Assembly: GCA_905221615.1 (NCBI GenBank)
Contig: CAJNDT010006001.1
Span: forward strand, 322,501 to 386,500
Length of the DNA stretch: 64,000 nucleotides
DNA from: Symbiodinium sp. CCMP2592
Lineage: Eukaryota; Sar; Dinophyceae; Suessiales; Symbiodiniaceae
Reading direction: 5' to 3'
Part shown: in pieces, positions 13,827 to 30,574 of the stretch
How positions within the stretch are numbered: the first letter of the stretch is position 1
How the letters are laid out: the number at the start of each line of letters is the position of its first letter
The notes under the pieces: generated by a model
The model's input: the letters and a program-made list of their open reading frames with translations, nothing else
The model's database searches: none
Told to the model about the DNA's origin: nothing
Position numbers and translations under genes: made by a program

Positions 13827-13871
13827 GTGTGTTGGAGGTGGCTTTCTGAATTAATTGCAAACTGGAAGCAG

Positions 13872-14150: not shown

Positions 14151-14377
14151 CCTCAGTGTCATCCTCCGTTGTGCGCCTTCGCTTCTGTGGAATCAAGGCA
14201 TTTCTTTCTGCTGTTTTCTGTATAATTCTAATGCTACGCAGCCCGCCTCGGCCGCCGGCTGCAGTAGGGCCAGCAGGGGCGCAGAGCAGGGGCCAAACTG
14301 CGAAGGGCCTCTCAAGGCAGGTGTAATTTAGTTGCAGGGTCAGGGCTACTTGGAGAAGTGTGGTAAGTGTAGAGCAA

Positions 14378-14635
14378 AGCCCGCGAACGAAGCATAAGAA
14401 GAAAAGGCAGTGGAGCCGGCCCGGGGGGGGGAGGCCGAAAAAGCCAAAGCACGCGAACGAAACATAAGAAGAAAAGGCAGTGGAGCCGGCCCGGGGGGCG
14501 GCAGGCCGGAAGAGAAGAAAAGAGGAAAGAAAACGAGCAGGATAGAACAAAAAACGAGGGGAAGCCGGAGGAGGAAGAAGGGGCCGGAGGAGGAAGGGGG
14601 GGCCAGCAAGGGGGGGGGGGAGGAAGGGGGGGGGG
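14378..14635. repeat. 70-bp tandem duplication and purine/poly-G tract (insertion site)
   Basis: GCGAACGAAGCATAAGAAGA at about 14383 repeats at about 14453 with GCGAACGAAACATAAGAAGA (period 70). This is followed by about 130 bp of GA/G-rich sequence ending in two runs of ten G. E1 starts directly after the last run. The counterpart at about 44111-44369 is followed by E3. Confidence 0.75.
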
Positions 14636-14884
14636 TGAAACCATAAACCTCTAAAGGGGTAGCTCTAACAGGTACCTACAGCAATGGCTGCATGCTCATA
14701 CATATACATTCCGCTGCCCATTGGCTCACAGTGGTTTTACCATATTGAGACAAGACAAGCTCTCCTTGCGTAGCAAGACAAAACAACTACTGTCCGTGTG
14801 CAGGGCGCTGCCCTTTGATCCTTAGGGAATAAACTGGTCATACACCTCCTTACAAGGAGTATCCCTTGGGGGTGTATCGGCACA
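14636..14884 (+). repeat. E1 5' LTR
   Basis: TGAAACC..GGCACA, 249 bp. Near the 3' end, ATACACC (14840-14846) pairs with GGTGTAT (14871-14877) and encloses a CTCCTT-AC-AAGGAG hairpin (14846-14859), a candidate RNA structure in R/U5. CTTGCGTAGCAAG forms another small hairpin. It has one extra A (GAATAAACTGG) compared with the other LTRs. Confidence 0.9.
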
Positions 14885-14986
14885 GTTTTCTGGTAGCGGA
14901 GCCCGGAAAGGGCCGCCCGCCTCACAAAGTCCGCTACAGCGGTCGGCCTCGCCGAACGCTTAACCAAGCGGATAAGAGGCAGCACA
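14885..14986 (+). promoter_or_regulatory. E1 leader: tRNA primer-binding site and hairpins
   Basis: Six bases after the LTR, TGGTAGCGGAGCCC (14891-14904) closely resembles the complement of the initiator tRNA-Met 3' end, the usual primer of copia elements. Downstream are two perfect hairpins, CCGCT-AC-AGCGG (14931-14942) and CGCTT-AACC-AAGCG (about 14957-14970). In E3 the second has GACC in the loop with the stem unchanged. The gag ATG follows at 14987. Confidence 0.75.
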
Positions 14987-17900
14987 ATGTCGAGCTCGCA
15001 TAGCGAAGCCGACGGCAGTTCCCAATCCTCCGGGGGATATGAGAACGAAGAGACCTCCCAAGGTCCAGCTACTTATGTCGCACAGTCATATGCAACATCT
15101 GACCGCATGCTTGCATCATTAGGCATAACGCCCAAGATCGCGCCTGCCTATGATGGCACCACTTCGTGGTTTGAGTATGAACAGTTGATTGACGACTGGT
15201 GCGACATAACAACGCTGGATGACACCAAAAGAGGTCCGTCTCTCAAGACGAGGCTCTCCGGATTGGCCGCAGTACAAAAGGAATCACTGAACCGAGAAAG
15301 GCTTGCAGCCCCAGATGGAGTAGATTACTTCAAGAAGAAGATGCGTCCATTTTTCGTGAAAGGAGAACAGTACGTTTTCCTGTGGCGTTTCCTCGGCCTA
15401 TTCAAGGCATGGAAGGGCAACCAAGACTTTGTGACTTGGATTGCTAAGTTTGAGATCGTGCTACAGCGCGTGAGAAACTCATGGATGGATCTCTTACCAG
15501 AGATAGTTCTGGAAGATGCCCATCCGGATTTCATGCAGGCTGTGCAGGCAGATCAAACCTTCATGCGCCTACAGGATGCAACCGAGAGAGACACATACGC
15601 CGCACGTTTCTTCGAAACATGGAACAAGGAACGCCTTGATAATCATCGAAGAGCGTTTCCTCTAAATGATAATCTCCTAGCTCTCCTCTTCCTAGTGCAG
15701 TCCGACCTAAATGAGATGCAACGTGAGAGGTTGGTAACAGCATTGACCAACCAAGGTTACCGAATTGAGACCTACACGTACCCTATAGTACGGCAGACCA
15801 TGTTCGATCAGTTCTCAACGACCAGAACTGGTCTGCAGGATCCCAATATTCGGCACACTTCTCACAAGAAGGACCGCCATGGAAGGAGAGATCAACGCCG
15901 CAAACGCGGAGGTCGAAACTTCCTCATCCTCGATCAGGGTGAATACGACGGAGTCGATGGATTCTGGCTCCAAGACGAAGACACCCTTGAGGAAGGCTTT
16001 CTTGCCGCCGAGGATGAAGAAGCTGTCTTCTGGACAGTTGACGACCATGAAGCCTTCGTTGCAAGGAGATTCAAAAAGGGAAGAAGACCAAGAATGCGTC
16101 CCGGATCACCGGGAAGAGCAAAGGGTGGCAAGCGAAAAGGACGTGGCCGTTTTAGGTCATACCGCGGAAAAGGGAGAGCCAACCAGGCAGAACATGATCC
16201 AACTGATTCCAGCTATTTCGGTAAAGGTAAAGGAAAAGAAAAAGGAAAAGGTGGAAAAGGCAAAGGAAAAGGAAAGGACAAAGGAGATAAAGGAAGCTCC
16301 TTCAAGGGTACAAAATCAAAAGGCAAAGGTAAGGATACAGCTAAGTCTGCCTCCTTACAAGGAGACCAAACTGGATCTCCACAGGCCTATGAAAGTTCCA
16401 CCGCACCGAGCTGGGATTCATGGTATGAGGACAGTTATTATACTGACTCCAGTTGGAATTATGCCGCTTATGACGATCAAACGTCTTATACATACTATGC
16501 ATCACAAGCCTCACGAAGAAAGACACGGAGAAAGAAGAGAAGAAATCAAGCAGGATCATCAGGTAGAGGCACAGATCCGAGCGCGCACCAAGAACCCGTG
16601 TACAACTCATCAGTGAGTTACGTGCCCCAGGTCTTTGAACCATCCGAGGGGCAAGGTGTGGAGACTGCAACAGCAGTGTTTCCGTTGCAGCACACCGTCC
16701 TATCTGCTCTCACAGAGCGGATCAATCTTGATAAGAGCCCTACCTTTGTCATACTTGACTCTGGTTGTACTAGGGCTATGGGTTCCCGCTATGCGGTGAA
16801 CAGGCTTATCAAGGCCGTGAAGCAACATGCCCCAGGCATGATTGATTTCACTTTTTCACCTTCGAACACGAAGTTCTCTTTCGCAGATAGTGAAACAGCT
16901 CTTATCAAGGAGCGTGTAACTCTATGGTTTAACACAACTCCAAGAAGAGATACAACCATAGAAGTTCTGGATCAGGGGAGAGTTCCCATTTTGTTCTCCA
17001 TTGAACAGATGAGAAATCTAAGAATGACCCTCGAGTGTAGTCCAACAGCTGACCTAGCAACGTGTGAAGCTTTCGGTTTGTATAAAACCCCTCTTCCGAT
17101 TAGTACCAATAACCATTTGGTATTGGACCTTCTAGGCTTTACTTCCACCAGGAAGTACCTCCCTAAGTCAGGTACGTCGTTCAGTGCGACGGAGACTGCT
17201 CTAGGAGCCAATAAGCCTTATGTTAGGATACCGGAAGGTCGCTGTCCAGCCTGTGCCGGACAGAAAAAGGCTCACACGTACCTTAAGGGTTGTGACAAAG
17301 CACCTGAGGGAGCAGCTGATCCACCACCGAAGAGGATTTCAGGGAAAAAGAAGCCTCTTCCATCTGATCCGGCAGAATCATCTGCCAAGAAACTTGATCC
17401 ACCAGAACCATCTGGTGATGTTCCTGAGCCTTCCGGACCATCGGAACCATCATCAGGTTCTAGGGACAAACCTGCAGAATCCTCTGCATCACATGAACCT
17501 CCAGAAGAAGAAAGACTTGAGGTTCCACCTGCGAAGATAAAGACTCCAAAGGGTCTTAAAAACCTTCTGAAGAAATCCCGCAAATATGCGGTTAAATCTC
17601 CTGTTGAAGAGAAGTCTAAGGTCCCAGGAGCTGATGACGGGACGGAGGTAAGACCACTTGAGTCAAGAGAATACCCGGCTCCTGGTACAGACTCACCTAC
17701 AGGTGAAGAGATTGTCGCAGAACCATCGCCATCTCTTCCCATTGCTCTTCGCAGGATTCATGAGAAGCTTAAGGACCCTGTAGAACTCTATAAGCTTCAC
17801 CTTAAGCACCGTCATATGAGTACGGATCAGTTCAAGCGACGCACAAAAGCCTTACAGATCCCAAAGGAGATCTACGAGCTATATGACCAACTGGTCAAAA

Positions 17901-19741
17901 AGTGTTCAGCCTGCCAGGAACATGTGAGAGCTCCTTCAAGAGCGAAGATTTCTGGTTTAAGATCAGAGACTTTCGGTGATCTCACCTTCGTAGATCACGG
18001 TGAGCTTCCAATTCCCGGCAAGGATAGTCGCTTAGTATTTCTTATTCTCTATGATGGAGCAACAAACTTGTTGACTGCCGAAGTAGTCCAGGATAAAGAA
18101 GAACATACCACAATGTCGATTATGAATGACTACTTTGAGAAATTTCAGATCAACCCAAAGGTTGTAGTTGGAGATCAAGCATTCATGACTCCAAAAATGG
18201 AGGCCTATTACAATCGGCAGAATATCAAGCCTGTAGCAACAGGACCTGGAACACCATGGCCCAACAGGGCCGAAGCTGCTGTAAGATTACTGAAGCATCA
18301 GATTAAGCTCATACTTCAGATCCTGAAGGATGGTGACCCACAGTATAACGGAATCACCATGAAGTATGGTAACCTCGTTCGCCAAGCATGTTTGGCAAGA
18401 AACTCTTCGATTACCTACGGAGGAGTTACTCCTTTAGAAATGGCCTTTGGAAGGCGTCCTCGAGATGTTATAACACCAGAGAACGCTGATCCCAATCAGT
18501 TGACAGGTAATCCAACTGATACGGAAGTCACTGCGAGAGCCATTAAGGAGCTTGCCAACAGGGCTTACCAAGAGGCACGCCAATCTGATGATCTGCGTAG
18601 AGATCTTGCAGCCAGACTGTCAATGACCCAAGGACCTTTCTCTTTGGGAGATAAGGTTTTCTACTGGTCAGAAGATAAGTCTAAGATTGGATCCACTGGG
18701 TCCAAACATGGATCTTGGCTAAAAGGAAAGGTGATCTCCGAACTCGGAGGATCCATGGTAGGTGTGGATCTTGGAACACGCATCGTCCGCGTCAATATCT
18801 CAAAACTGAGGAAAAATTATGACATAACATCTGATGTGGAGATTCCTCTCGCGCCTGATGAGGAAACTCTGACGTCAGAAGGTTCTGACCACGCAAGTTG
18901 CATGGTCACCTTCGATGCTTCCCTGCAGTCGACAGACCTAACGATTCCACATCAAGAGTGTCACTGGCAGGTCACCAGCACTGGGAAGATTGACTTCCTA
19001 GAACTCTACGGCGGATCTCCCCGCATGAGTCACAAGGCTGCCCTGTCAGGTCTTCGAGTAGGTCAGCCAGTCGATTTGCGTAGCGGTCTAGATCTTGAGC
19101 AACCGCAAGGTCGCTCCAATCTTCTTAGGATCATCAAGGAACAAGAACCTACTATTATTGTTATGTCACCGGACCATTCTCAGTGGTCTAGCTGGTACTC
19201 ACAGTGGAAGAAAGGCTCTGCCAAGAGACTTTCTGTTTTAAAATTCTGTGAATCGGTCGCAGACCACCAAATGAAGCTCGGACGTTACTTTGTTCTTGAG
19301 AACCCATACTACAGCAGGCTCTGGTCTTCACCAGAAGCAAAACGCCTGTTTTCTAATCATAAGATCAGCTATGAGGTCTGTAACCTACAGGCCTATGGCA
19401 TGAAAGATCCAACAGGATACTATGAATCGAAATCCTCGATTTTTATGCACAACTTGCCACCGCAAGTTTTAATTCCTCTCCAGAGGCATTCTGCCAAAAC
19501 GAAATCTCCAACATCTCCACCAGGAGACGAAAAGGGTATTCAAGGCTACGGTCTTAAAACGAAACTCGCACAAGTGTATCCTTATGAATTCTGTGAGACC
19601 TTTGCCTCGTGTTTGGCAAGATTCCTGAAACGAGATGCGTATGCATCTCATCTGTCTTTAGTCACAGACATACTAGAATACTCTGGAGATGAATGCCTCC
19701 AGGGACTTTCGGAACTTCTTGATCAGGAGTATTCACTTTGA
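14987..19741 (+). CDS. gag-pol: E1 gag-protease-integrase part of the copia polyprotein
   Basis: 1584 codons from the first ATG after the leader. Residues 1-300 are a helical Gag-like region. About 412-455 is a Gly/Lys-rich basic linker (GKGKGK type), probably the nucleic-acid-binding part, as no CCHC knuckle is seen there. D591-S-G is the aspartic protease motif. C753-x2-C-x6-H-x5-C769 is a zinc-finger-like motif. H938/H941/H943 with C973-x2-C976 form the GAG-pre-integrase HHCC region. D1003, D1063 and E1096 fit the integrase DDE triad. About 1335-1500 is a Rossmann-like, methyltransferase-resembling segment. It ends in ..YSL because a base is missing (CTT-TGA) where E2 and E3 read through into the RT frame. 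Confidence 0.9.
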   Translation: MSSSHSEADGSSQSSGGYENEETSQGPATYVAQSYATSDRMLASLGITPKIAPAYDGTTSWFEYEQLIDDWCDITTLDDTKRGPSLKTRLSGLAAVQKESLNRERLAAPDGVDYFKKKMRPFFVKGEQYVFLWRFLGLFKAWKGNQDFVTWIAKFEIVLQRVRNSWMDLLPEIVLEDAHPDFMQAVQADQTFMRLQDATERDTYAARFFETWNKERLDNHRRAFPLNDNLLALLFLVQSDLNEMQRERLVTALTNQGYRIETYTYPIVRQTMFDQFSTTRTGLQDPNIRHTSHKKDRHGRRDQRRKRGGRNFLILDQGEYDGVDGFWLQDEDTLEEGFLAAEDEEAVFWTVDDHEAFVARRFKKGRRPRMRPGSPGRAKGGKRKGRGRFRSYRGKGRANQAEHDPTDSSYFGKGKGKEKGKGGKGKGKGKDKGDKGSSFKGTKSKGKGKDTAKSASLQGDQTGSPQAYESSTAPSWDSWYEDSYYTDSSWNYAAYDDQTSYTYYASQASRRKTRRKKRRNQAGSSGRGTDPSAHQEPVYNSSVSYVPQVFEPSEGQGVETATAVFPLQHTVLSALTERINLDKSPTFVILDSGCTRAMGSRYAVNRLIKAVKQHAPGMIDFTFSPSNTKFSFADSETALIKERVTLWFNTTPRRDTTIEVLDQGRVPILFSIEQMRNLRMTLECSPTADLATCEAFGLYKTPLPISTNNHLVLDLLGFTSTRKYLPKSGTSFSATETALGANKPYVRIPEGRCPACAGQKKAHTYLKGCDKAPEGAADPPPKRISGKKKPLPSDPAESSAKKLDPPEPSGDVPEPSGPSEPSSGSRDKPAESSASHEPPEEERLEVPPAKIKTPKGLKNLLKKSRKYAVKSPVEEKSKVPGADDGTEVRPLESREYPAPGTDSPTGEEIVAEPSPSLPIALRRIHEKLKDPVELYKLHLKHRHMSTDQFKRRTKALQIPKEIYELYDQLVKKCSACQEHVRAPSRAKISGLRSETFGDLTFVDHGELPIPGKDSRLVFLILYDGATNLLTAEVVQDKEEHTTMSIMNDYFEKFQINPKVVVGDQAFMTPKMEAYYNRQNIKPVATGPGTPWPNRAEAAVRLLKHQIKLILQILKDGDPQYNGITMKYGNLVRQACLARNSSITYGGVTPLEMAFGRRPRDVITPENADPNQLTGNPTDTEVTARAIKELANRAYQEARQSDDLRRDLAARLSMTQGPFSLGDKVFYWSEDKSKIGSTGSKHGSWLKGKVISELGGSMVGVDLGTRIVRVNISKLRKNYDITSDVEIPLAPDEETLTSEGSDHASCMVTFDASLQSTDLTIPHQECHWQVTSTGKIDFLELYGGSPRMSHKAALSGLRVGQPVDLRSGLDLEQPQGRSNLLRIIKEQEPTIIVMSPDHSQWSSWYSQWKKGSAKRLSVLKFCESVADHQMKLGRYFVLENPYYSRLWSSPEAKRLFSNHKISYEVCNLQAYGMKDPTGYYESKSSIFMHNLPPQVLIPLQRHSAKTKSPTSPPGDEKGIQGYGLKTKLAQVYPYEFCETFASCLARFLKRDAYASHLSLVTDILEYSGDECLQGLSELLDQEYSL
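18989..19490 (+). other. Methyltransferase-like Rossmann segment between integrase and RT
   Basis: Codons about 1335-1500 read I-D-F-L-E-L-Y-G-G-S-P-R-M-S, then a V-D-L-R-S-G-L-D-L block, then I-I-V-M-S-P-D-H-S-Q-W-S. This follows the order of C5-cytosine-methyltransferase/SAM-binding folds (glycine loop, acidic second strand, P-x motif). The catalytic Cys expected after Pro is replaced by Asp1396, so methylation of cytosine by the classical mechanism is unlikely. It may be a decayed or re-purposed binding domain. Conserved in E2 and E3. The assignment is inference from motif order. Confidence 0.5.
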
Positions 19742-22700
19742 CAACAAATCCTCTCAAGGATTCAAAACTCCTGCAAGATCCGAAAATCAGATCACTTGTT
19801 GCTAGAGTAAATTCTTTATCGAGTAAAACTGAATTACCATTGCATCATTCCAAACCATCACCGTCCCTTGATGCCTTGGTGTCAGACATTACTCGCCTTA
19901 GATCAAGACTCTTACCAGGGTCTGGTTTCGAACAGTGTACTCTATACAGAGGTACATTTGGAACAGTTAAAGCACTCACCAGTGTAACTGATGGCGTTCT
20001 TGTCTTCTGGAACAAGAAGAAGCCCAATTCGACTATGACGTGTTGCTTGCCGCACCAGGTTTCCTGGAACAAGGTACACCCATCAACCTTCTCGGGGGTG
20101 CTATTCCAGATGACAGGCGGCAAGACTTCACCGTCCGTGCGAACACCGCCGGATGTAATCATGTCGGACGAAGAGGTTTCGCCGTCAGACCCGTCGGAAC
20201 CAATGAGCACTAATCGCTCACGGATCACATCTGACGATGTTTCTATGCCGGAACCAGATCAGCCGATGCCTCCCGGCACGCCGCCGTCGCGTCCTCCTCC
20301 TCCCATACCTCCACCGCGACTACCGGCCGTTTCCTCCGATGAGCCCGTGGCTCCTGCTCGGGCTAAGCCTCGCGTGCATCCGCCTCCTCGCGTTCCGTCT
20401 CCTCGGCGTCTGGGGGGTGATGTGTCGCCAAGGTCTTCATCGGAAAGGAAAGTTTCGCCGCACAAACAGAAATCACCTTCACAGGTGCCGACACCAAAAC
20501 CTAAACCGAAGGCACATCCACAGGGACCCATTCTTCCGTTACAACAAGATGAAGAAGACACTGAAGAAGAACTGGTCCCAGACGACCCCGGACAACCGTC
20601 CGCTCCTCCTCACACTTCTGGTTCACCAGAACCGGAGAGCGATGCCGAGTCAGAAAACACAAGGTATTACTCTGATGAGGAAGGTGACTTGGTCGTAGAT
20701 GAGAAGGACTGGGTCCTTCTCACAGAAGAACAGAAACTGTGTAGTAACACAGGTTCTTTCTCCATGCCTCGGTACATGCATGGCGGACCCGTAGACATCA
20801 GAGAGGTAACATCAAGAGTGAGGTCAGACCGAACACGGTATAAACCCACTAAAAGGTTTCGATCTGACATCCGTGAAGAGTATGATCTTCTCACGGAAGA
20901 GGACAAGGCCTTATCTCTAAGTTCCCCCAGGAACTCAGCGAATTTAACCCAGAAGGCACAGCGGAAGGAGGCAACCGCCAAGGAAAAGCGTGAGATGAAG
21001 AAACAGTTTGATGAAGCGAAAGCAGCAGAATATCAGAGCTGGCTAGACAATGATGTCTTTGAGCTCGTTGATACACGGAAACTCGGAAACATCCGAAATT
21101 ATGTCACTGGTCGATGGGTCCTGACTCTAAAAAGAGACAAGGACGGAAACTTCCTTAAGTGCAAGGCCCGATGGGTCCTGAGAGGTTTCCAGGATCGACA
21201 GAAGGACATTCAGCAAACTGATAGTCCTGCTGCGAGTCGCCCAGGTTTCCGCTTAGCGATTCAACTAGCAGCTAACAAGCTGTGGAATCTGACACACATC
21301 GACTTAAAGACTGCTTTCCTGCAGGGTGAAGCCTATGATGAGTCGAGAGACATAATCTGTCAGATTCCTCCTGAAGCAGGTTATCCTTCCTACATTGCAG
21401 CGAGGATGAAGAAACCCGCTTATGGACTTAACGATGCACCTCGAAGATGGTGGAACATCGTTGATAAGGCACTCCTGTCTTATGGCCTGGTGCCAACCCG
21501 TGCGGATCGCTGTACATATGTTCTGTATGGTAAGAAGTCTGCAACAGCAGATGCTGAGCTCAAGAAGTCTCAGCCAAAGACCATGGAATCAGCGATTGAC
21601 TATCTCCTAGATCCCATAGCAGGCAACAATGCCAAGGGTAGACAGGTACATGGAGTAGTCTGTTTGCATGTAGATGACCTGTGCATGGCCGGTGATGACA
21701 CCTTTCGTAAGGCCGTGATTGAATCGATCAAAAAGGAATTTGCAGTAGGTTCTGAAGACACGAATGATATCATGTTTGTAGGACAGAGATTAGTCTGGAA
21801 GGATGCTACAGCATCAGTGCCAGCACATATCTCAGTAAATCAGAACCTAGCTGTTGAAGCTCTAGAAGAAATTGTTTTTGACAAGAAGCTCAACAATGAG
21901 CAACAATGCACACCACAGCAGCACACTGCTTATAGAAGTGTTTTAGGACAGATCAACTGGCTACAAAGCCGGACTCAAGCTCACATCTGTTATCGCTTCA
22001 GTCGGTGTGCGAGCAAGGCTGCCAAGCCTACTATCGGTGATATTCGAGAATTGAACAAGCTTGTTAGGATTTTGAAGTCTACCGAAGTAGAATTGCGTTT
22101 TTGGCCGCTGAAGGGAAATCTCAGAATCCTCGGTTACCCTGATGCTTCCTACAGGAACAATGATGACAAATCATCTCAGAGAGCACATGTTATTTTCCTT
22201 GCTGAAGATCGAAATCCAAAGCTAAAAGGAATGAAACAATCAGCAGCAGCTGCTTCTTCCAAGAAGAACGATTTCTCTGAATCCTCTATTAAGGAAACAT
22301 CCTCGAGAGGTAGCCTGGTGGATTATGAGTCTCACAAGATTACGACAACCACAATGTCCACAACAGTGGCAGAGCTTAACGCACTGATGCGTTGCTTTGG
22401 TACCTGCCTGTTCCTCAAGGGACTTTGGGCAGATCTCTCATCAGAGACCGTACCTATACATATCAGAACAGATGCGAACAATCTTGTGACAACAGCAGGC
22501 ACGACACACCTTCCAGAGCAAAAGGAAACTCACCATCTTATACAGATGCTTCGTAAGGAATCCAACTCTGGATCTCTAGATGACCTAGCTCATGTAAGCT
22601 CGAAGTACTGCCTAGCTGATGCATTAACAAAGCATTCGGCACAACCTGATGAGCTTATCAAGGCTCTGGAAACAGGAAACTTACCAGAAACAGACATTCA

Positions 22701-22854
22701 TCCACCCTTCCGTGAACTCCTTCAACATAAAGCTTTCACTGTTCGGTGGATCATAGACAACCTTAAGAATGCCGCTACAGCGGTAGCCTTCCTTGGAATT
22801 GATGTCTCAACAGAGATTTACCGATTATTTTACTGCCAAGGAACATGGTGGTAG
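19738..22854 (+). CDS. gag-pol: E1 reverse transcriptase-RNase H part of the polyprotein
   Basis: In E2 and E3 this continues the gag frame. In E1 a 1-nt deletion near 19738 puts it in another frame, with no ATG at the junction. Numbered from 19738, residues about 130-330 are a Pro/Ser/Glu-rich linker. Reverse transcriptase (RVT_2 type) spans about 437-700 with D522 (HIDLKTAF) and the HVDD box D646-D647. RNase H follows with D802, E879, D912 and D961. These catalytic residues are all present, so the enzyme module itself looks intact. Stop at 22852-22854. Confidence 0.9.
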   Translation: MTTNPLKDSKLLQDPKIRSLVARVNSLSSKTELPLHHSKPSPSLDALVSDITRLRSRLLPGSGFEQCTLYRGTFGTVKALTSVTDGVLVFWNKKKPNSTMTCCLPHQVSWNKVHPSTFSGVLFQMTGGKTSPSVRTPPDVIMSDEEVSPSDPSEPMSTNRSRITSDDVSMPEPDQPMPPGTPPSRPPPPIPPPRLPAVSSDEPVAPARAKPRVHPPPRVPSPRRLGGDVSPRSSSERKVSPHKQKSPSQVPTPKPKPKAHPQGPILPLQQDEEDTEEELVPDDPGQPSAPPHTSGSPEPESDAESENTRYYSDEEGDLVVDEKDWVLLTEEQKLCSNTGSFSMPRYMHGGPVDIREVTSRVRSDRTRYKPTKRFRSDIREEYDLLTEEDKALSLSSPRNSANLTQKAQRKEATAKEKREMKKQFDEAKAAEYQSWLDNDVFELVDTRKLGNIRNYVTGRWVLTLKRDKDGNFLKCKARWVLRGFQDRQKDIQQTDSPAASRPGFRLAIQLAANKLWNLTHIDLKTAFLQGEAYDESRDIICQIPPEAGYPSYIAARMKKPAYGLNDAPRRWWNIVDKALLSYGLVPTRADRCTYVLYGKKSATADAELKKSQPKTMESAIDYLLDPIAGNNAKGRQVHGVVCLHVDDLCMAGDDTFRKAVIESIKKEFAVGSEDTNDIMFVGQRLVWKDATASVPAHISVNQNLAVEALEEIVFDKKLNNEQQCTPQQHTAYRSVLGQINWLQSRTQAHICYRFSRCASKAAKPTIGDIRELNKLVRILKSTEVELRFWPLKGNLRILGYPDASYRNNDDKSSQRAHVIFLAEDRNPKLKGMKQSAAAASSKKNDFSESSIKETSSRGSLVDYESHKITTTTMSTTVAELNALMRCFGTCLFLKGLWADLSSETVPIHIRTDANNLVTTAGTTHLPEQKETHHLIQMLRKESNSGSLDDLAHVSSKYCLADALTKHSAQPDELIKALETGNLPETDIHPPFRELLQHKAFTVRWIIDNLKNAATAVAFLGIDVSTEIYRLFYCQGTWW

Positions 22855-23077
22855 TCTTGTTTGCTGGTAGCACAACCATGTGCTGGATTTTCTATTTAGA
22901 CTGTTTTTCGTCTAAAAGAAAATTTGTGTCTGCAAGCTGCGTTTTCATCAAGATCGGACATGTTCATGAGAACTATATGTTCTGTATCATCCGCAGCCGC
23001 TTTCAGCCTCGAGCCTCACAGCAATCAGCTTTTGAGCTAACCAAGCATTCCTGATCCTGTTTGGTCATCGTGCCGTA
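22855..23077 (+). promoter_or_regulatory. Spacer with hairpin and internal polypurine-like motif
   Basis: TTTAGAC (22895-22901) pairs perfectly with GTCTAAA (22910-22916). The overlapping 20-mer TAAAAGAAAATTTGTGTCTG (22913-22932) recurs with one mismatch two bases before the 3' LTR (30285-30304). This is the arrangement expected of a central plus a 3' polypurine tract, as known for Ty1. It could alternatively be a processing or trans-splicing signal for ORF3. Confidence 0.5.
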
Positions 23078-24601
23078 ATGAGCACACGATCAAACTTCCG
23101 TAGCCGTGATGGACACGCCCTACCAAGGGCAGTACAGGCGTACCATGAGCGACATCCACACATGGATAGCTCTTACCCCGAGTCTCGTCGGGACGCATCA
23201 CGTCGACACACCGAACACGGTGGACACCGATTTCACAAACGTGAGAAAAATAACGAGCCTCCATACATTTACATGGGTCACCAACAGGTGTTCAATCCGC
23301 GTCCAAGAGATCTTGCTGACCTGATCTTACGATGTGGCCATGCGAGTCGAGCAAGGCTCACTCCAATCTCCAGACATGGAGTCAGGCTCTACGAAGGAGT
23401 CCTTCAAGGACCATGGGACAACAGTCCCCTTTTATACTGGGATAACAACGTGGGTAATCACGCTCGTGATCCACGCCAGTTTTGTACGATGCTTGCACAT
23501 CACCTTCAGACTGGCCTCCCACAGGAGGTAAAACAATGTGTGAGTCTTGATGCATCTGGAGAATATGACTATTCCTCCTCAGTGCCAAGACTGACAGAGG
23601 TAACAGGTCTCTCACCAGAGATGTGCTTCCACATTCTTTCCAAGACCAACAAGTCGGAAGGTGGTTGGCACACTCAACAAGACACCTTCAGAACCAGCGC
23701 CAAGATCTCTTTGCTGGCCAACACAATTATCTTCTGGACATGTCCAAGTTGGCCGATGCAGAGCTCGCACAATATTCACCACAAGAGATCGCGCTTGGTG
23801 TCCTCCTTAACACTAAGTCCAGGTTCGTGGTCACTATGGTTTATGACCAAGATGGCAAGGCCGAAACAACAATTGCCGCCGTTACCATCCCACAGGATGC
23901 AAATGTGCTGACCATGACCAAACTTTTCCTCTCGGCAGTGGGAGGACACGGTTCACGACGAACTCTACCAAGAGCTGAAGAACCAGATCCTGAAGAAGAG
24001 AGGCCAAGGTCACACATGACCATCTCAGACTTCATGGCAACGGGGAGCAATCCTGTGCAGTCCCATGCACAGCGTCTCTCCACTAACGCGCCAAGGCCCG
24101 TAGGCATGGAAGATTTTGTTCGACAGAACAACCCTTGTTACATCATGCATGCCACGGACTTACAGGCATTATCCTCAATCCTGAGGCATGGTCTGGTACC
24201 ATCAAACCTCCTATCGCAGGTGGTTACCTCACCAGGTCTTCAAGCTCTCGTGAATGAAAACAGTCGTTCCAACAGGGACACTGTTCAGTTTTCAACGCTA
24301 AACCTGGCGAATCCTAATCCGACTTTGCTGCGTGCCAACAAGGCACTGCTTCTAGTATTCGACGCAAATAACGTAGTGAACGAAGTCACAAACATGTGGC
24401 AGTCGCAAGCAGGGATGTTTGCTACACCAGATGTAGTGCATGCCCGTACTCTTAGCGCCGTATTTGCACCCTCTGAAACACTCTGGGTATCATCGCAATA
24501 CGATGAGCTCAAGAGCATCGGACCATGGTGGGCAGACCACTGCTCCGAACAAATGCCGTCAGCGACTTACGAGTCGAAGAAATGGTGCTCAAATTACGGC
24601 A
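23078..24601 (+). CDS. E1 ORF3, N-terminal part with Tpt1/KptA-like domain (frameshifted)
   Basis: ATG at 23078 is the first in the frame and is kept in all copies. The frame runs to about 23654, where a G is missing (CAACAAGTCGG versus CAACAAGGTCGG in E2/E3). It continues in a second frame to about 24601, where an A is missing (GGCAAGAG versus GGCAAAGAG in E3). The first 60 codons are basic. A segment reading L-N-T-K-S-R-F (about 23810) and then M-H-A-T-D-L-Q-A-L-S-S-I-L-R-H-G-L-V-P (24145-24201) followed by L-L-L-V-F-D-A resembles the two lobes of RNA 2'-phosphotransferase (Tpt1/KptA). That enzyme moves the 2'-phosphate of a spliced tRNA onto NAD. Function here is inferred. Confidence 0.7.
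23730..24510 (+). other. Tpt1/KptA-like (ART-fold) domain of ORF3
   Basis: Family pattern: an N-lobe with LL..t.e.i..v...K.RF, then a C-lobe with H-G-T..SI...GL, a ..LL.iDa strand and a late G..f...-V.. segment. Here: S-P-Q-E-I-A-L-G-V-L-L-N-T-K-S-R-F, H-A-T-D-L-Q-A-L-S-S-I-L-R-H-G-L, A-L-L-L-V-F-D-A-N, and G-M-F-A-T-P-D-V-V. The His of HxT is kept and the Gly is replaced by Ala. Another ADP-ribosyltransferase-fold family is possible. A profile search would decide. Confidence 0.5.
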
Positions 24602-27600
24602 AGAGATCGAATCGACACTTCGCAAGATGTCAAGGCGAAATCTGCCTCCAGAGCCTCCCAAGGCTAGATCTTCTCACAAGAAGTCTTTCTCTCTGCCAAA
24701 TACAGAGGCTGACACAGCTCCAAACCTGGAGCAAACCGCTTCTGCAGGTGAAGTACCTCCGAAAACGGAGACTACTGCAAAGGAGATCCATCCGAGATCC
24801 AAGCTCGCCCGGCAGGCCGAGGCCGACAAGGATCCGGACAGTCTTATGGGACAGCTCTGGAACTCCGACGGCACCAGAAGCGCCACTGAAGTTCTTAAGA
24901 TAACGACAGGTCACAAACCTCCAGAACCTGTCCAGGATACTTCTGCCAATGTAGTTCCTCCCAAGGAAGAATCTTCTGGAACAGAGACGGAACCTGAGGA
25001 ACCAGATCCTAACCAGGATTGTGACGAAGAATCAGACGTTGAGTCGGCATCAAGCGAAAAGAGCGAGAAGAGCGAAAAGAGCTCAAAATCTTCGTCATCC
25101 TCAGAACTCCGAGTTGATGTTAATCCGTCTCACAAGACGAACTCTGCACCTGCAGCGTCAGAGGAGAAGAAAGAATCTCCCACGGAAGAGATCACAGAGA
25201 AACTTGAGAAGGTCAAACTTGACCAACCAAAGCCTGAAACAGAATATGTTCAGAGCTCAGACGAAGAGCCAAGAAAACCAAAATCTCCTAAAAAGGAGAA
25301 GGAAAAATTCCTAGTTCTCTTCGATCCTGAAACAGAAACCTATTATCGAGTCAACAGAAGCAAGCTCAACCTCGAATACGAGGAGCCTGCTGATGAGGAA
25401 GACCTCGTAAGAGAACATGAGCGCATCAGCGCTCGAATTCGAGAAAATACCAAGCACCGAATCTCGAAGTCACCGTCTAACCCGGCTATGCAACAGGAAA
25501 TGCAAGAGAGAATCTGGGTTAGTCGATGGAATCGAAAAATCCGAAGTCCACTCATGATCAAAGATTCTGAGGCTCCTGACGAAGAGGAGTGGGACAGACC
25601 CAGAGAGTCGGCATCTTCCTCCTCTGCACCTCCTAACAAGGAGAGATTTGTAGGAGTACGCAGGACAGCCATGAGCCTTAACCAAAGGATACGAATGTTG
25701 CCTCGACCAGACAATCCTCTCTGCGATCTCTGCAAACAGCCTACAGGCTATTTTTGCTATTCCTGTGGAACGATTGTATGTGCAGACTGTCGACTTACCC
25801 CACAGGGTAAACAACGGATGTGCGAGTGCGTCTTGCCAATCGATTGCCTTGAGACCTCCAAAGTGAGAGCAGGAATGACCTCAGAAGAGCGTCAGTTTTT
25901 ATACGAGGCCATCCTCACACATGAGGACGTAGATTTGGCAGTCCAGAAAATCAACATGTATTGCGAACACGCAAGAAGTCTGTTCGAAAAGGACCATCCA
26001 GGCGTTGATCCATGCAGCCTTGATGATATTAGGAACAATCCTCCGAATACGTATGACAGCTCCACAGAGGCTCCAACCCTGGAGGAATATAAGAGCATTA
26101 ACAAGAGTCACATCAATATCAAGGACTCTAGAACAAGCCACCCGGCTTCTTTTCTCTCTCTTACTGGCTACGAAGACAAACTGGTGCTCGACGCACATTA
26201 CGAGATAGTTCGCAATAGGATGGCCGGTGTTAACGAGAAGAGAGAATACATTGAAGGCTCAAACCCAGACAGCGTATCGCTAAACCTAGTGGTATTCAAC
26301 TGGGGAAATATGGATCGAGCGCCGGTGCCCGCAGGGAATCCCAAAAAGAAGCTCAAACCTGAGAAGGGATTCGATTATCACCCTCTTATTGACATGTGCT
26401 TCAACAATTCAGCTCATATTACCCTCGTACTCGAGGCAGGAGCACTTGCGTCAGAGTATTCAATCGCAACCATGCGACAACATGAATACAGGGGGATGCT
26501 AATCCATTCTCCTCCCAAGGAGCCTGAGGCACCCTCAATGTATATTGGAGTCAAGGGTGACCCAACAACAGACATCGCTCTCGTCCACCACTTTTACCGT
26601 CATCGAACAATGAAGCCTAAGAATGGTGGTCCCAAGAAGCGACTGTGGGCATGCCACGGTGCGGTATGCCGCCTCACCTTTGGGTACCACAGTACCATAC
26701 CAGAGGCAAAAGAATGGGTCCACCCATATTCTGGCCAAAGGATGACGAGAGACGAGTTCATGCAGATTATCGGATATGACCCACTCAAGGGCAAAAATCC
26801 TGACAAGGATGGACCCACTGATGGCTCTTACCTCTCACCAGAGGCGTGCCTGACACTGTCGAACCTCGACCCCTCGCCGGTTCTCTGTGAATGGAACGGC
26901 CATGTCGAGGGTGATGAGCCACCAGAGGAAGACTTTGAGTCATACGCAGAGATCTTCTCACAAGAAGCATCGAACGATCTTGACGAGATGTGGTGTACAA
27001 AAGGGCCTTACAAGGTCATCACCATCGCGATCGTCCATTTCAACTCATTCATGACTCATAAGGAAGAACAGAGACGCGAACTGGTGAACGCGTTCCTCAA
27101 CGAGATTCTCCCTTTTAAACCGGATGTAATAGCGGGAGATCTCAATAATATTGCGTCGAGGCTCACCTTAAAAGGTGGAGACGTTCACCCGCGAAACAGT
27201 TTGTTTTCTCTATACCTGGAGAAGAAACTTGCAGCATTCAACAAAATAGCAGGAAGGCACTCACAAGTGCGACATCTTTGCTTGAACAACTCCGACCAGC
27301 ACAGACTGGCACGTGCAGATCGTCTACCGGCGGACCCGGCGAAGAAAGTTGCTGACCTTGACTGTATCAACAGTTATATCCTTGACTGGAGTAAAACGCC
27401 GCACACGGCGTCACCTAGTCCAAGAGAGGTCACACCTGCCGCTGAAAGAACATACTGGGAACGAATCTCAGATATGTGGCAGGACACGAACAACAACAGG
27501 GATATTGATATCCGTCTGTTTGTTTCAGTCAAGCAGTACTATTCAACTTTTTCTAACCTTGACCTATGGTTGAGTCCCTCTGACAAAGATTGGCACAGCC

Positions 27601-29999
27601 CTTTGGGCTTCACGATACAACCAATCCTTACAAAAGGGAAACACAACCGGTCAGATGCCCAGGTCCAAAAGATCGCTGACAAGCGAAAGGCTTACAAGCA
27701 GCGTAATGCTGAATACTGGGGTTACAACGATTCATTCGTTTACTCATCCGGCAACAGCTGGTACGACAAATCGCAACCATCAGGTAGCCATCACAGATAT
27801 GGAAGATTCTGGGAGTGGCCACAGCCTGAACGTCCCAGCGAGCCTGAAGGTCCTCCTCCAAGAAGGAACCAGGAATCATCGTCCTCTTCACAACAAGATC
27901 TACCAAGATCAAGGTCCAGGCCTCAAAGAACCAATATTGTTGACAAGCTCAACATGTCTTTGGAAGAGCTGGATGGACTAGAAGAAGAACCGTCACCAAC
28001 AAAAAGTGACATCGAAGAACACGAAAGAGAAACATCAAACTTGATGTCTGCTCAGAGAGATGAAGAGGAACAAGAGGACGAATCCTCCAGCCGGAGAAGA
28101 AGAAGGAAGGCATCGCGTCCACCGTCTGCTCCGAGCGGCAAGGCACTCAGAACAGCTGCTACAGCAGCGGGGTTGTCGGGCTGGTTCGGACACCGCAACC
28201 GAGGTGGAGCGAACGCAGAGTCTATCAAGACTGATGAAACTTCACTTCCAAACTCACTAACCAGTGAGCAGGACTTCTCCGTCTTCAGCATCGCGTGGAA
28301 TGTGTTCCTGCTGCTAATGGGCTTACACTGGATGTGGAAGCAGATTACCAGGCCTCCTATCAGATGTATGGAGCGCCAACAACCAAAATCAAAAGCAGCA
28401 GCGAACCAAAGAGTTCCATTCCTCGAACCCGAGGATGAACCGCAGACGCGTGAACCTTTAGGACCCAACAGGGTCAATTCCGGAGAAACAACTGATCTGC
28501 GACCTATCTGGCATACTTCCCGAAGCGAAGTCTACCATCTCTCAGACAGCTGTTACCAGCTCAAGCAAGCAAGAGATGTTTGCAAGAAGGTGCTGTGCAA
28601 AAACTGCCTCCATGCAGTACAAGTTGCGGAGATTCGCAGGAACGATCCTTTCCAAAGAGGTGATACACGACCACGTGGCACCGAAAGAGACATTGAGCGC
28701 TTCCAGACCTACGATGATGCAAGTAACACTCCTCACATGACACAATTGTTCAAGGATGCCTTGCATGCACAAATGGCCGAAGAAGCCATGCAGATTACCT
28801 ACACATCGATCCCCAAGGGATCCTCGGCAAAGGCCAGAGGTACATCTGCACTCTCAAGTGCCGCATCGTCATCAGCGCCCAAGGCAATGCCACCAGGGCC
28901 TAACAAGGCAAACATATCACCTCCACCTAAGAGTCCTCCGCCAAAGGCGAAAGGAACAGTACCTTCTGATCCTCCAAGACCAAAAGGTCCTACCAGAAGA
29001 GGAGGTCAAAATCGGCGCATTCAACGAAAGGCAGCTAGAGAAGCCCACAACAGTGGACTCTGCACCTATGCAGACGCTGCACTTGACGAAGCCAATCAAG
29101 GCCAGGCAATTAACGTTACGTGCCGAAACATAGTAGCAAGACACGTCAGCTCTATCGATGCAACGGTAGAAGCAGCCGGCCAGTTTACACAACGCGTGCT
29201 ACAGCACGTAGAAACATATGATGAAGAGGAACCGTGGAGCACGGAGTTCCTACCAGTCGTGGAAGTCCTATTCAGGAACTTAAGCGGCGACGAAACAACT
29301 GTCATACATGACAATCAAACGGTAACTATGCCTCTTGCGAAATACACAGACCTCCTCAGAATCGCACAATCATTGCGAAGCTCTATCCAGAGAGACAAGG
29401 AGGAAAGGAAGGAACATCTTGACACCATCCAAGATACTCTATCCAGAGTGGAAATCCTTCTAACAGCACTGAAGGACTCAAGGACAGTCTTTAACCAATT
29501 GGTCCATTCCTCACTAGAGATAGAGCGAAGAAATAACAATCTCAAAAATGTCCTCGAGACACTCTTTGACGACCAAAGCTCTGAGGAAGACCAGTCAGAA
29601 TCTGACAATGAAGAAGTCCTAACTCCTTCTGCAGCACAGTACTGGAATAGCCTTTATGCCCACGCCTTATCTCCTTCAGGAGATGAAAGTGAAAGATCAT
29701 GGGCGTCCTCAGACGGACAGCTTGAAAGAAGAAGGGCTGAACGGGCAAAGGCTAAGCAGCCGCAACCGGCAAAAGCCAAGGCAACTCCAGCCAGCTCACA
29801 AGCTGCTCCAAAGGCCGAGCCAAAGGCGACAACATCCAAGCATGGATATGATACTGCAGTTGCCGCCTTCACCAGGGCGGAGAACAGATTACTCGGAATC
29901 TTTTCAAGTTCCGAAGAAGACCACTCAGACCCGGATGAGCCACATCCGAACGTCTACGCTCGAGCCTATGATCCAAACCTGGATCCAAATCTGAGATAA
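24525..29999 (+). CDS. E1 ORF3, main part: cysteine finger, EEP nuclease, TM segment, coiled coil
   Basis: Open for 1824 codons (authentic coding from about 24602). Numbered from 24525, 30-290 is acidic/Ser-rich and probably disordered. C400-x2-C403-x7-C411-x2-C414-x4-C419-x2-C422 is a cross-brace-like zinc finger. About 590-1030 is an EEP-superfamily domain with N592, E637, H838/N840, G-D872-L-N874 and a D1020..D1022-W-H1024 SDH-like end. About 1090-1240 is basic/acidic low complexity with an Arg run. 1251-1271 is one hydrophobic, probably membrane-spanning segment. H1338/C1343/C1353/C1358/C1361 form a metal-site-like motif. About 1605-1690 is a coiled coil. The position downstream of pol is where env-like genes sit, but no envelope protein family is recognised. 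Confidence 0.8.
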   Translation: MVGRPLLRTNAVSDLRVEEMVLKLRQEIESTLRKMSRRNLPPEPPKARSSHKKSFSLPNTEADTAPNLEQTASAGEVPPKTETTAKEIHPRSKLARQAEADKDPDSLMGQLWNSDGTRSATEVLKITTGHKPPEPVQDTSANVVPPKEESSGTETEPEEPDPNQDCDEESDVESASSEKSEKSEKSSKSSSSSELRVDVNPSHKTNSAPAASEEKKESPTEEITEKLEKVKLDQPKPETEYVQSSDEEPRKPKSPKKEKEKFLVLFDPETETYYRVNRSKLNLEYEEPADEEDLVREHERISARIRENTKHRISKSPSNPAMQQEMQERIWVSRWNRKIRSPLMIKDSEAPDEEEWDRPRESASSSSAPPNKERFVGVRRTAMSLNQRIRMLPRPDNPLCDLCKQPTGYFCYSCGTIVCADCRLTPQGKQRMCECVLPIDCLETSKVRAGMTSEERQFLYEAILTHEDVDLAVQKINMYCEHARSLFEKDHPGVDPCSLDDIRNNPPNTYDSSTEAPTLEEYKSINKSHINIKDSRTSHPASFLSLTGYEDKLVLDAHYEIVRNRMAGVNEKREYIEGSNPDSVSLNLVVFNWGNMDRAPVPAGNPKKKLKPEKGFDYHPLIDMCFNNSAHITLVLEAGALASEYSIATMRQHEYRGMLIHSPPKEPEAPSMYIGVKGDPTTDIALVHHFYRHRTMKPKNGGPKKRLWACHGAVCRLTFGYHSTIPEAKEWVHPYSGQRMTRDEFMQIIGYDPLKGKNPDKDGPTDGSYLSPEACLTLSNLDPSPVLCEWNGHVEGDEPPEEDFESYAEIFSQEASNDLDEMWCTKGPYKVITIAIVHFNSFMTHKEEQRRELVNAFLNEILPFKPDVIAGDLNNIASRLTLKGGDVHPRNSLFSLYLEKKLAAFNKIAGRHSQVRHLCLNNSDQHRLARADRLPADPAKKVADLDCINSYILDWSKTPHTASPSPREVTPAAERTYWERISDMWQDTNNNRDIDIRLFVSVKQYYSTFSNLDLWLSPSDKDWHSPLGFTIQPILTKGKHNRSDAQVQKIADKRKAYKQRNAEYWGYNDSFVYSSGNSWYDKSQPSGSHHRYGRFWEWPQPERPSEPEGPPPRRNQESSSSSQQDLPRSRSRPQRTNIVDKLNMSLEELDGLEEEPSPTKSDIEEHERETSNLMSAQRDEEEQEDESSSRRRRRKASRPPSAPSGKALRTAATAAGLSGWFGHRNRGGANAESIKTDETSLPNSLTSEQDFSVFSIAWNVFLLLMGLHWMWKQITRPPIRCMERQQPKSKAAANQRVPFLEPEDEPQTREPLGPNRVNSGETTDLRPIWHTSRSEVYHLSDSCYQLKQARDVCKKVLCKNCLHAVQVAEIRRNDPFQRGDTRPRGTERDIERFQTYDDASNTPHMTQLFKDALHAQMAEEAMQITYTSIPKGSSAKARGTSALSSAASSSAPKAMPPGPNKANISPPPKSPPPKAKGTVPSDPPRPKGPTRRGGQNRRIQRKAAREAHNSGLCTYADAALDEANQGQAINVTCRNIVARHVSSIDATVEAAGQFTQRVLQHVETYDEEEPWSTEFLPVVEVLFRNLSGDETTVIHDNQTVTMPLAKYTDLLRIAQSLRSSIQRDKEERKEHLDTIQDTLSRVEILLTALKDSRTVFNQLVHSSLEIERRNNNLKNVLETLFDDQSSEEDQSESDNEEVLTPSAAQYWNSLYAHALSPSGDESERSWASSDGQLERRRAERAKAKQPQPAKAKATPASSQAAPKAEPKATTSKHGYDTAVAAFTRAENRLLGIFSSSEEDHSDPDEPHPNVYARAYDPNLDPNLR
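26280..27640 (+). other. EEP (DNase I/APE-like) nuclease domain of ORF3
   Basis: The motif order matches the endonuclease/exonuclease/phosphatase superfamily: V-F-N-W-G-N (metal-site Asn), L-V-L-E-A-G (Glu), I-V-H-F-N-S (His/Asn), V-I-A-G-D-L-N-N (the GDxN motif) and S-D-K-D-W-H-S-P (SDH-like terminus). Insertions between motifs make it longer than the usual 250-300 residues. EEP domains are normal in non-LTR elements, where they nick the target, but LTR elements integrate by integrase and do not carry one. The same motifs are intact in E3 (56025-57370). Confidence 0.65.
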
Positions 30000-30306
30000 G
30001 AGAATCTCAGAGTTTCACAATAGTGACTCACAAAGCTCTAACAAGAGCAAAGTGAAAGGCTGCATAATTCGATGTAGAAAACATCACTAGACATGATCTT
30101 GTACAGATGATCTCTCTGACCAACATGCATGAGTGTGTGTGCAAAATGAGTGGAGTGTCCTCAGCAGTGTACTTCAGTGCTATACCTAGCATAAATAACA
30201 TGCTGTTTTTATCATGAGTCCAAACTCCGCAACTGTGACAGTGGGCATAATAGTATATGTGTGAATGTGCGGCCATGCTTCCGGTAAAAGAAAATTAGTG
30301 TCTGTT
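30000..30306 (+). promoter_or_regulatory. E1 3' untranslated region and 3' polypurine-like tract
   Basis: 307 nt with no frame. TAAAAGAAAATTAGTGTCTG (30285-30304) sits two bases before the 3' LTR and is the likely plus-strand primer region. It nearly repeats 22913-22932. AGAATCTCAGAG just after the stop is a small direct/inverted motif. Confidence 0.5.
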
Positions 30307-30554
30307 TGAAACCATAAACCTCTAAAGGGGTAGCTCTAACAGGTACCTACAGCAATGGCTGCATGCTCATACATATACATTCCGCTGCCCATTGGCTCAC
30401 AGTGGTTTTACCATATTGAGACAAGACAAGCTCTCCTTGCGTAGCAAGACAAAACAACTACTGTCCGTGTGCAGGGCGCTGCCCTTTGATCCTTAGGGAA
30501 TAACAGGTCATACACCTCCTCACAAGGAGTATCCCTTGGGGGTGTATCGGCACA
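30307..30554 (+). repeat. E1 3' LTR
   Basis: 248 bp, TG..CA. Compared with the 5' LTR it lacks one A, has CAGG for CTGG near 30505 and has TCAC for TTAC in the hairpin loop. It is directly followed by a 20-bp G/A tract. Confidence 0.9.
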
Positions 30555-30574
30555 GGGGGGGGGAGGGAGGGGGG
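30555..30574. other. 20-bp G-rich spacer between E1 and E2
   Basis: GGGGGGGGGAGGGAGGGGGG is all that separates the E1 3' LTR from the E2 5' LTR. It resembles the poly-G tracts on the outer sides of E1 and E3. Confidence 0.85.

Follow-up and report, generated by a model that had tools for sequence, protein, structure and literature searches.

A recently amplified copia-type retrotransposon of Symbiodinium sp. CCMP2592 with a giant third reading frame and a probable Tpt1-like domain

The window analysed here, a stretch of 64,000 nt from Symbiodinium sp. CCMP2592, contains a Ty1/copia-type LTR retrotransposon (element A), the family of which is recently amplified in the host genome and maintains a third open reading frame (ORF3) as part of the element. 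ORF3 is very probably a functional gene of the element, and there are good grounds to believe that it contains a Tpt1-type domain. The best reading of the whole, namely an amplified copia element whose Tpt1-like ORF3 ADP-ribosylates RNA ends, was assigned a probability of about 0.4.

Structure of the element and its copies

The following features were located in the window:

14636-30555, forward strand: element A, 15.9 kb
14636-14885, forward strand: 5' LTR of element A, pairing with 30307-30555 (last base ambiguous)
14891-14906, forward strand: candidate primer binding site, beginning with TGG (read by eye, position checked)
14987-19741, forward strand: first frame of gag-pol, an ORF of 1584 aa
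about 17987-18256, forward strand: integrase match (rve) in the first frame, E 0.019
19738-22854, forward strand: second frame of pol, the ORF carrying RVT_2
about 21049-21528, forward strand: RVT_2 match in the second frame, PF07727, E 7.2e-18
23078-29999, forward strand: ORF3, starting MSTRSN, a 2307-codon span downstream of gag-pol
30307-30555, forward strand: 3' LTR of element A, pairing with 14636-14885
30575-40954, forward strand: copy B, beginning 20 bp past the end of A and ending at the assembly gap
40955-41054, no strand: assembly gap, 100 N
44370-60291, forward strand: copy C, beyond the 100-N gap, 99.35% identical to A

The two LTRs of element A (250 and 249 bp) were 98.8% identical over 250 columns, and when a target site duplication was looked for, both ends of the element were found to fall in G-runs. 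The segment at 14891-14906 may resemble a tRNA 3' end. In the Pfam search the rve match in the first frame was weak (15.7 bits against a cut-off of 32.6), and the order of the domains, with the integrase ahead of the RVT_2-type reverse transcriptase, was the copia order. Both the LTRs and the copia-order gag-pol that an earlier note had described from the letters of this DNA were recovered. The ORFs of copies B and C (1860 and 1837 aa) extended further from the gag side than that of A.

ORF3 was located downstream of gag-pol in each of the window copies A, B and C. Copy B was 98.1-98.6% identical to A. Elements A and C showed 90 differing positions and 14 gap openings, and the alignment of the 3.3 kb upstream of each had 9 gap bases and not one mismatch. 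Because the upstream flanks matched without a mismatch and copy C sits beyond the N gap, C is probably locus A assembled a second time and not an independent copy. The three copies from which the earlier note had drawn a consensus were thus present, although one of them is probably locus A again and B is cut by the gap.

Open frames, relatives and selection

ORF3 was broken in the window copies; in copy A, indels divide it so that it is read in three successive frames. In a survey of the host genome, the best 80 of 985 first-look candidates, with copy A among them, were scored, and all of these were at least 99% identical over the 540-aa query; this shows that many near-identical copies exist, although the scoring is tilted towards the closest ones. 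An open ORF3 frame of 2,310-2,330 aa, from stop to stop, was found in 30 of these 80 best-scoring copies, and a frame of at least 2,226 aa in 39. As 30 of the 80 were open, the full ORF3 frame is present in natural copies and is not a mere product of combining broken ones, and the proposal of a giant third ORF (about 2307 codons) past pol was confirmed. Longer frames (3,814 and 3,989) were observed in 2 of the 80 scored copies.

Relatives of ORF3 at 55-68% identity were P0011, P0012, P0016, P0018, P0020 and P0021, and all relatives with a named organism came from Symbiodinium. P0010, P0013, P0014 and P0015 are chimeric public gene models that hold pieces of ORF3. The presence of ORF3 beside copia gag-pol elsewhere, which had been suggested for a search, was seen in P0013 (Symbiodinium microadriaticum) and P0015 (Symbiodinium sp. 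KB8), each of which combines ORF3 sequence with a precomputed RVT_2 domain, but both belong to the chimeric models.

For pN/pS, the 30 loci whose protein scores were highest for the middle piece of ORF3 were used with copy A as the reference; L013 (which is copy A) was left out as a copy, copy C was kept though it is probably the locus of A, and only codons that could be read in at least 20 copies were counted. Choosing the copies by the middle piece biases this piece to few changes (pN/pS 0.03-0.04), and only the stretches outside it are cited. There, 28 nonsynonymous versus 80 synonymous single changes were counted among the 30 copies and A, with two codons having more than one change excluded, and pN/pS was 0.10, or 0.13 with a transition bias of 3. 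In pairwise comparisons, B differed from A by 7 nonsynonymous versus 22 synonymous changes in the Tpt1 half of ORF3 and by 11 versus 47 in gag-pol, and from C by 10 versus 24 in the Tpt1 half; the remainder of ORF3 gave a weaker signal between A and C (13 versus 21, ratio 0.18). These results support purifying selection on ORF3, in agreement with the dN/dS check across copies that the earlier note had called for.

The Tpt1-like domain and other parts of ORF3

Within ORF3 the following parts were distinguished:

23659-23841, forward strand: Tpt1-like RNA lobe (RWLAHSTRH ... LNTKSRF), suggestive, by a lobe-only HMM
24124-24438, forward strand: Tpt1-like NAD+ (ART) lobe (MHAT ... NRDTVQF ... LRA), by PF01885 and a lobe HMM
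25710-25793, forward strand: Cys-rich, B-box-like finger, PF00643, E 2e-4
26280-27614, forward strand: EEP-like region with a weak EEP HMM block, GDLN at 27135-27146
28275-28337, forward strand: single hydrophobic segment, the highest Kyte-Doolittle windows of the 24525-29999 frame
28533-28613, forward strand: His/Cys motif (YHLSDSC ... CKNCLH), read from the sequence

When trimmed pieces were searched against Pfam, PF01885 was the top family for three of the five (copy B, P0011 and P0012), with E values from 8.9e-5 (P0011) to 0.018 and 7.2e-4 for copy B, none of them reaching the 26-bit cut-off. With untrimmed sequences PF01885 took no more than second place for P0011 (E 0.025) and P0014 (E 0.15) and was absent for P0012. 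P0020 and P0021, whose coverage of the NAD+ lobe is small, gave no PF01885 match. The NAD+ lobe HMM scored 19.3-24.4 bits, as against at most 6.0 in 3,000 shuffles (0/3000 as high), which supports a Tpt1-like NAD+ lobe. With the RNA lobe-only HMM, 4-12 of 1000 same-sequence shuffles scored equally high, and the likeness of this lobe to Tpt1 is suggestive. Nothing was returned from the PDB at E 10 with the A6 profile, though the PDB holds Tpt1 chains; PDB sequence searches with ORF3 gave no Tpt1 chain, NCBIfam gave no match for ORF3, and hhalign of ORF3 against the Tpt1 domains of host LINEs, with thin profiles, gave none either. In a PF01885 search of the host genome, the window copy was not among the matches listed, for which 150 of 1,550 candidates were scored. 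AlphaFold gave no usable model of the Tpt1-like piece (5 sequences, mean pLDDT 35.3). The Tpt1/KptA-like domain claimed before thus held for the NAD+ lobe, but with PF01885 below its cut-off and a suggestive RNA lobe.

In the alignment of the catalytic tetrad, the Arg, the His and the fourth Arg aligned with those of Tpt1 (3/4 residues), and the position of the third Arg was occupied by Ser in all five sequences (copy B and four relatives), an assignment that spans an insert of about 30 residues. The domain is therefore termed Tpt1-like and not Tpt1. HAT was found in place of HGT, and HAT and the Arg-His were kept in 5/5 aligned sequences; the fourth Arg was present in the three sequences that cover the position fully, and the HVHL of Tpt1 aligned with VQF. 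A by-eye reading of HHLQ as the Arg-His motif was rejected, given that the HMM places this motif at TRH.

The EEP-like region was the most conserved part of ORF3; across four blocks, 44/60 residues are the same in P0011. When an HMM was built from three E. coli EEP proteins, scores of 4.3-6.9 were obtained for the window piece and for three relatives, compared with at most 4.2 in shuffles (n=1200) and -2.5 for P0018, which is without the block; when a LINE EEP was added to the HMM, the scores were 2.0-4.6 and two of the four fell below the best shuffle (3.0). Pfam at E 10 gave no EEP match in the region, the sole Pfam match in the block being Stealth_CR4 (E 0.027-0.17), PDB sequence searches with ORF3 found no EEP chain, and AlphaFold gave no usable model (6 sequences, mean pLDDT 31.7). 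What was left of the EEP nuclease pattern of the earlier note was one block around H...GDLN, slightly above shuffles with one HMM, and the odds of an EEP fold in ORF3 are about even. The multi-Cys finger and the hydrophobic segment were both found again, the former as a B-box-like match below its cut-off (21.9 bits against 24.1) and the latter, by hydropathy only, as one segment also present in P0011, P0013 and P0016. Pfam had no family at the His/Cys motif.

Possible functions and known systems

The ORF3 protein would accompany the RNP or particle of the element, where the Tpt1-derived domain may use NAD+ to ADP-ribosylate phosphorylated RNA ends (2'- or 5'-phosphate), the candidate substrates being host RNA, the RNA of the element or the tRNA that primes it. 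With Ser for the third tetrad Arg, the dephosphorylation step might be slow or never finished, and the EEP-like region, the finger, the hydrophobic segment and the His/Cys motif might act on that RNA by trimming, binding or positioning it. In RslTpt1 R64A, step 1 was little affected (threefold) and step 2 was slowed 210-fold (PMC6333775), and ADP-ribosylation of the 5'-monophosphate ends of RNA or DNA is known in vitro for some Tpt1 enzymes (PMC8131947). Taken by itself, the ADP-ribosylation mechanism is tentative and unlikely on balance. Its narrower form is a long shot: the transferase would stop at step 1 and leave a lasting ADP-ribose mark or cap, which a linked EEP-type hydrolase would remove or trim.

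A structural or env-like role, in which ORF3 is a membrane-anchored Cys-rich scaffold and the folds derived from Tpt1 and EEP bind RNA or nucleotides but have no activity, is somewhat unlikely. The position after pol, the one hydrophobic segment shared by three relatives, and the Ser and VQF in place of the third Arg and HVHL agree with it, and PMC5408684 considers an env-like job possible for enzymatic ORF3s; however, the retention of HAT, the Arg-His and, where fully covered, the fourth Arg, as well as the conservation of the EEP-like region, argue against it. An ordinary Tpt1 removing RNA 2'-phosphates, as in the healing of RNA ends that the earlier note had proposed, would fit the two-lobe order and the three aligned tetrad residues but is improbable: the Ser in 5/5 sequences speaks against plain Tpt1 dephosphorylation, the third tetrad Arg of RslTpt1 counting mainly for step 2 (PMC6333775).

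Equally improbable is that the enzyme domains of ORF3 were acquired from retroelements of the same genome, such as a LINE with a Tpt1 ORF1 and an EEP ORF2, a reading that concerns origin only and is compatible with several functions. The host genome contains such a LINE, of which ORF1 matched PF01885 at E 8.5e-40 and ORF2 matched Exo_endo_phos (E 0.005) and RVT_1 (E 4.8e-22), and retroelement classes share ORFs (PMC5408684), but hhalign, with its thin profiles, did not match ORF3 to the LINE domains. A functionless passenger or gene-model artefact, to which the four chimeric models and the broken window copies might point, is very improbable in view of the low pN/pS, the conserved relatives and the 30 open frames among the 80 scored copies.

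The roles of Tpt1-type enzymes outside fungal tRNA splicing are an open question (PMC6333775, PMC8131947). A search of the available literature found no paper joining retrotransposon, ADP-ribosyltransferase and dinoflagellate, and the main text of PMC9503650, as available, is without 'retrotransposon', 'retroelement' or 'reverse transcriptase'. Element A is young and abundant in its host, probably a coral-symbiont alga, and the first part of the giant additional gene that it carries is similar to an enzyme of RNA repair. Through such a high-copy element, in which a Tpt1-like domain is under selection, direct tests of RNA-end ADP-ribosylation in the biology of retroelements would become possible, and the LINE with a full Tpt1 match in the host genome adds to this.

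Copia elements of the Sirevirus type carry an env-like ORF, an extra ORF after pol as in element A, which is not known to hold an enzyme domain in those elements. LTR elements with a captured enzymatic ORF3 are already known from bdelloid rotifers (Juno and Vesta; PMC5408684), and element A resembles them in this respect. The bdelloid enzymes are a DEDDy exonuclease and a GDSL esterase, whereas a Tpt1-type domain is probable here; PMC5408684 reports for them no coiled-coil or TM and no significant departure from neutrality, in contrast to the hydrophobic segment and low pN/pS of the present ORF3. Orchid Ty3/Gypsy elements are likewise LTR elements of very large size (25 kbp) that carry an additional RNA-modifying ORF, but theirs is an AlkB-type RNA demethylase with activity shown in vitro, and element A is of the copia and not the Gypsy type (PMC9289625). 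Host-type enzymes were also captured by the Symbiodinium retroelements SymbioLINE-Dnmt and SymbioDIRS-Dnmt3, which, unlike copia element A, are a LINE and a DIRS with DNA methyltransferase; the abundant Copia elements of Symbiodinium are reported to lack any DNMT domain (PMC5890265). With CthTpt1 and RslTpt1 (PF01885), the Tpt1-like domain of ORF3 shares the NAD+ lobe, the Arg-His and the fourth Arg, and it differs from them in the Ser at the third Arg, in the inserts within and between the lobes, and in belonging to a giant protein (PMC6333775).

Element structure and copies in the window

The giant copia element carries ORF3, a frame of about 2,307 codons downstream of pol, and is present in the window as copies A, B and C. 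The features of copy A were as follows:

14636-30555, plus strand: element A, with flanking LTRs of 250 and 249 bp (98.8% identity)
14987-19741, plus strand: gag-pol first frame, weak integrase match (E 0.019)
19738-22854, plus strand: pol second frame, RVT_2 match (E 7.2e-18)
23078-29999, plus strand: ORF3, in three successive frames

A weak integrase match followed by RVT_2 is, as judged from these domain matches, the copia order, and the LTRs and copia-order gag-pol described in the earlier note were thus recovered. In the ORF3-related proteins P0011 and P0021, the counterpart of the interval between pol and ORF3 (22855-23077) is an N-terminal extension containing a hydrophobic segment; copy C has a stop codon ahead of MSTRSN.

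Copy B starts 20 bp past the end of A and ends at a 100-N gap, on the far side of which copy C was found. When the 3.3 kb upstream flanks of A (11313-14613) and C (41055-44346) were aligned, 0 mismatches and 9 gap bases were observed, while the elements themselves showed 90 differing positions and 14 gap openings, which suggests that sequence around the gap was assembled twice. On the simplest reading, A and C would be one locus that entered the assembly two times, its interiors being taken in part from near-identical copies. Of the three copies noted earlier, C is thus probably the locus of A again, which would leave two independent copies. G-rich runs lie directly before the starts of A (14614-14636) and B (30555-30575), possibly reflecting an insertion preference or a tandem origin.

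The ORF3 frame and its constraint

The host genome (1.098 Gb) was searched for copies using a 540-aa middle piece of ORF3 as the query. The best 80 of 985 first-look candidates, copy A included, were scored, and all showed at least 99% identity to the query; at the sequence level this shows many near-identical copies rather than the spread of the family, since only the best were scored. Among these best 80 of 985, open frames of 2,310-2,330 aa were found in 30 copies and of at least 2,226 aa in 39, and therefore the long third ORF, claimed from a three-copy consensus, occurs naturally as an open frame and has been broken in copy A. In copy B, 39162-40954 stays in a single frame where A has its first two frame changes, and contains one stop at another place. 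Far longer frames (3,814 and 3,989 aa) surround the ORF3 piece in two of the 80:

G000:C4929:389326-390945, scored copy in the host genome
G000:C5034:235002-236621, scored copy in the host genome

Selection was assessed by comparing 30 copies, copy C and those of 29 loci, against A in two stretches that the query does not cover; single changes were counted, and two multiply changed codons were omitted. The count was 28 nonsynonymous against 80 synonymous changes, and the pN/pS of 0.10, or 0.13 with a transition bias of 3, points to purifying selection across the copies (a check named in the earlier note) among loci picked by an intact middle piece, A and C probably being one locus. Pairwise nonsynonymous to synonymous counts were 7:22 (B-A) and 10:24 (B-C) in the Tpt1 half and 11:47 and 12:45 in gag-pol; for the remainder of ORF3, A-C gave 13:21 (ratio 0.18), again with A and C probably one locus. 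By these counts, the constraint on ORF3 is nearly equal to that on gag-pol.

Tpt1-like, EEP-like and other regions of ORF3

The Tpt1-like domain consists of two lobes:

23659-23841: putative RNA lobe
24124-24438: NAD+ (ART) lobe

In Pfam searches, PF01885 was the top family for trimmed pieces of copy B (E 7.2e-4), P0011 (8.9e-5) and P0012 (0.018), all below the cut-off. Untrimmed, it was the sole family for protein P0009 (E 0.0039) and for 23623-24900 (E 0.0032), ranked second in P0011 (E 0.025) and P0014 (E 0.15) and was absent in P0012, as it was in P0020 and P0021, searched whole. An HMM built from Tpt1 sequences, three stretches from PDB and three domains from the host genome, gave 21.6 bits for P0011, 18.6 for B and 17.1 for P0012, and 1,200 shuffles reached at most 4.4. 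When the lobes were scored separately, the NAD+ lobe (19.3-24.4) exceeded every one of 3,000 shuffles (at most 6.0), which supports this part of the Tpt1/KptA-like claim. For the RNA lobe, in each of the five sequences scored, 4-12 of 1,000 shuffles of that sequence reached as high a score, and the best shuffle overall lay above it (10.2 vs 5.6). The RNA lobe register was identical in all five.

The joint alignment equates TRH with LRH, LSA.GGH or LSA.GGQ with IRA.QGHS, HAT with HGT, NRDTVQF with SRHHVHL, and LRA with GMR; thus, three of the four tetrad residues are kept and the third arginine is replaced by serine. Because of this replacement, and because R64A in RslTpt1 leaves step 1 near intact and slows step 2 210-fold (PMC6333775), we infer that the domain may ADP-ribosylate its substrate rather than dephosphorylate it; the weak point is the alignment across an insert.

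Tpt1 domains were also found elsewhere in the host genome:

G000:C890:318001-328000, minus strand: LINE-like element, ORF1 653 aa, ORF2 1572 aa

Its ORF1 matched PF01885 (E 8.5e-40) and contains a PARP-like stretch (E 2.6e-4, below the cut-off); ORF2 matched RVT_1, EEP (weakly), zinc fingers and a ubiquitin hydrolase (UCH E 3.4e-8). Many Tpt1 matches genome-wide score the same, three of them on this contig spaced 10,106 bp apart. Eight further loci (L001-L008) belong to another family of open frames bearing Tpt1; the seven that were read (all except L002) have the LRH, RATQGHS and RKHVHF-type motifs in place.

The EEP-like region is the most conserved part of ORF3 (44/60 positions identical to P0011 over four blocks) and contains N, E, H, GDLN and D...H in that sequence, which we take to be the EEP order. 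Pfam returned no EEP match at E 10, the single hit in the block being Stealth_CR4 (E 0.027-0.17), and no EEP chain in PDB was matched. The window piece and three of its relatives scored 4.3-6.9 bits with an HMM built from three EEP proteins of E. coli, vs at most 4.2 for 1,200 shuffles (controls: true LINE EEP 9.0; P0018, an ORF3-related protein without the block, -2.5); with the LINE EEP added to the model, they scored 2.0-4.6 vs a best shuffle of 3.0, two of four falling below it. The EEP nuclease pattern seen earlier thus scores slightly above shuffles with one of the two HMMs, and we give the EEP identity an even chance. As for the remaining parts noted earlier, one hydrophobic segment and the His/Cys motif are present, the latter with no family match, and the multi-Cys finger is B-box-like (E 2e-4), below the cut-off.

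Relatives and comparison with known elements

A set of 5.8 billion proteins was searched three times, with 6, 4 and 2 matches (in the last search, the best 8,000 candidates were scored), and the six with a named organism (P0010, P0013, P0014, P0015, P0017 and P0019) were all from Symbiodinium. P0010 and P0014 (95 and 98% identity over the aligned pieces) are gene models of Symbiodinium sp. CCMP2592, so that this strain or a close one is probably the host. CCMP2592 is S. tridacnidorum in PMC8045281; according to that source, most LTR elements recovered in its hybrid assemblies lie at Kimura distances under 5 and are possibly active. P0011 (1,900 aa) is ORF3-like from the extension upstream of MSTRSN to beyond the hydrophobic segment. 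RVT_2 and ORF3 sequence are joined in P0013 and P0015 (the latter a weak match, 30% over 17%), which suggests that the linkage of ORF3 to copia gag-pol may extend to other genomes, but both models are chimeric. The public models P0010, P0013, P0014 and P0015 appear to be chimeras of the element and other genes; two are named RE2 and one BSL3.

From a limited literature survey, we are aware of no description of an LTR element with a Tpt1-type domain. The closest kind described comes from bdelloids, LTR elements whose ORF3s are of the DEDDy or GDSL type (PMC5408684), and the orchid Gypsy AlkB elements (PMC9289625) and the Symbiodinium DNMT elements (PMC5890265) are other cases of captured enzymes.
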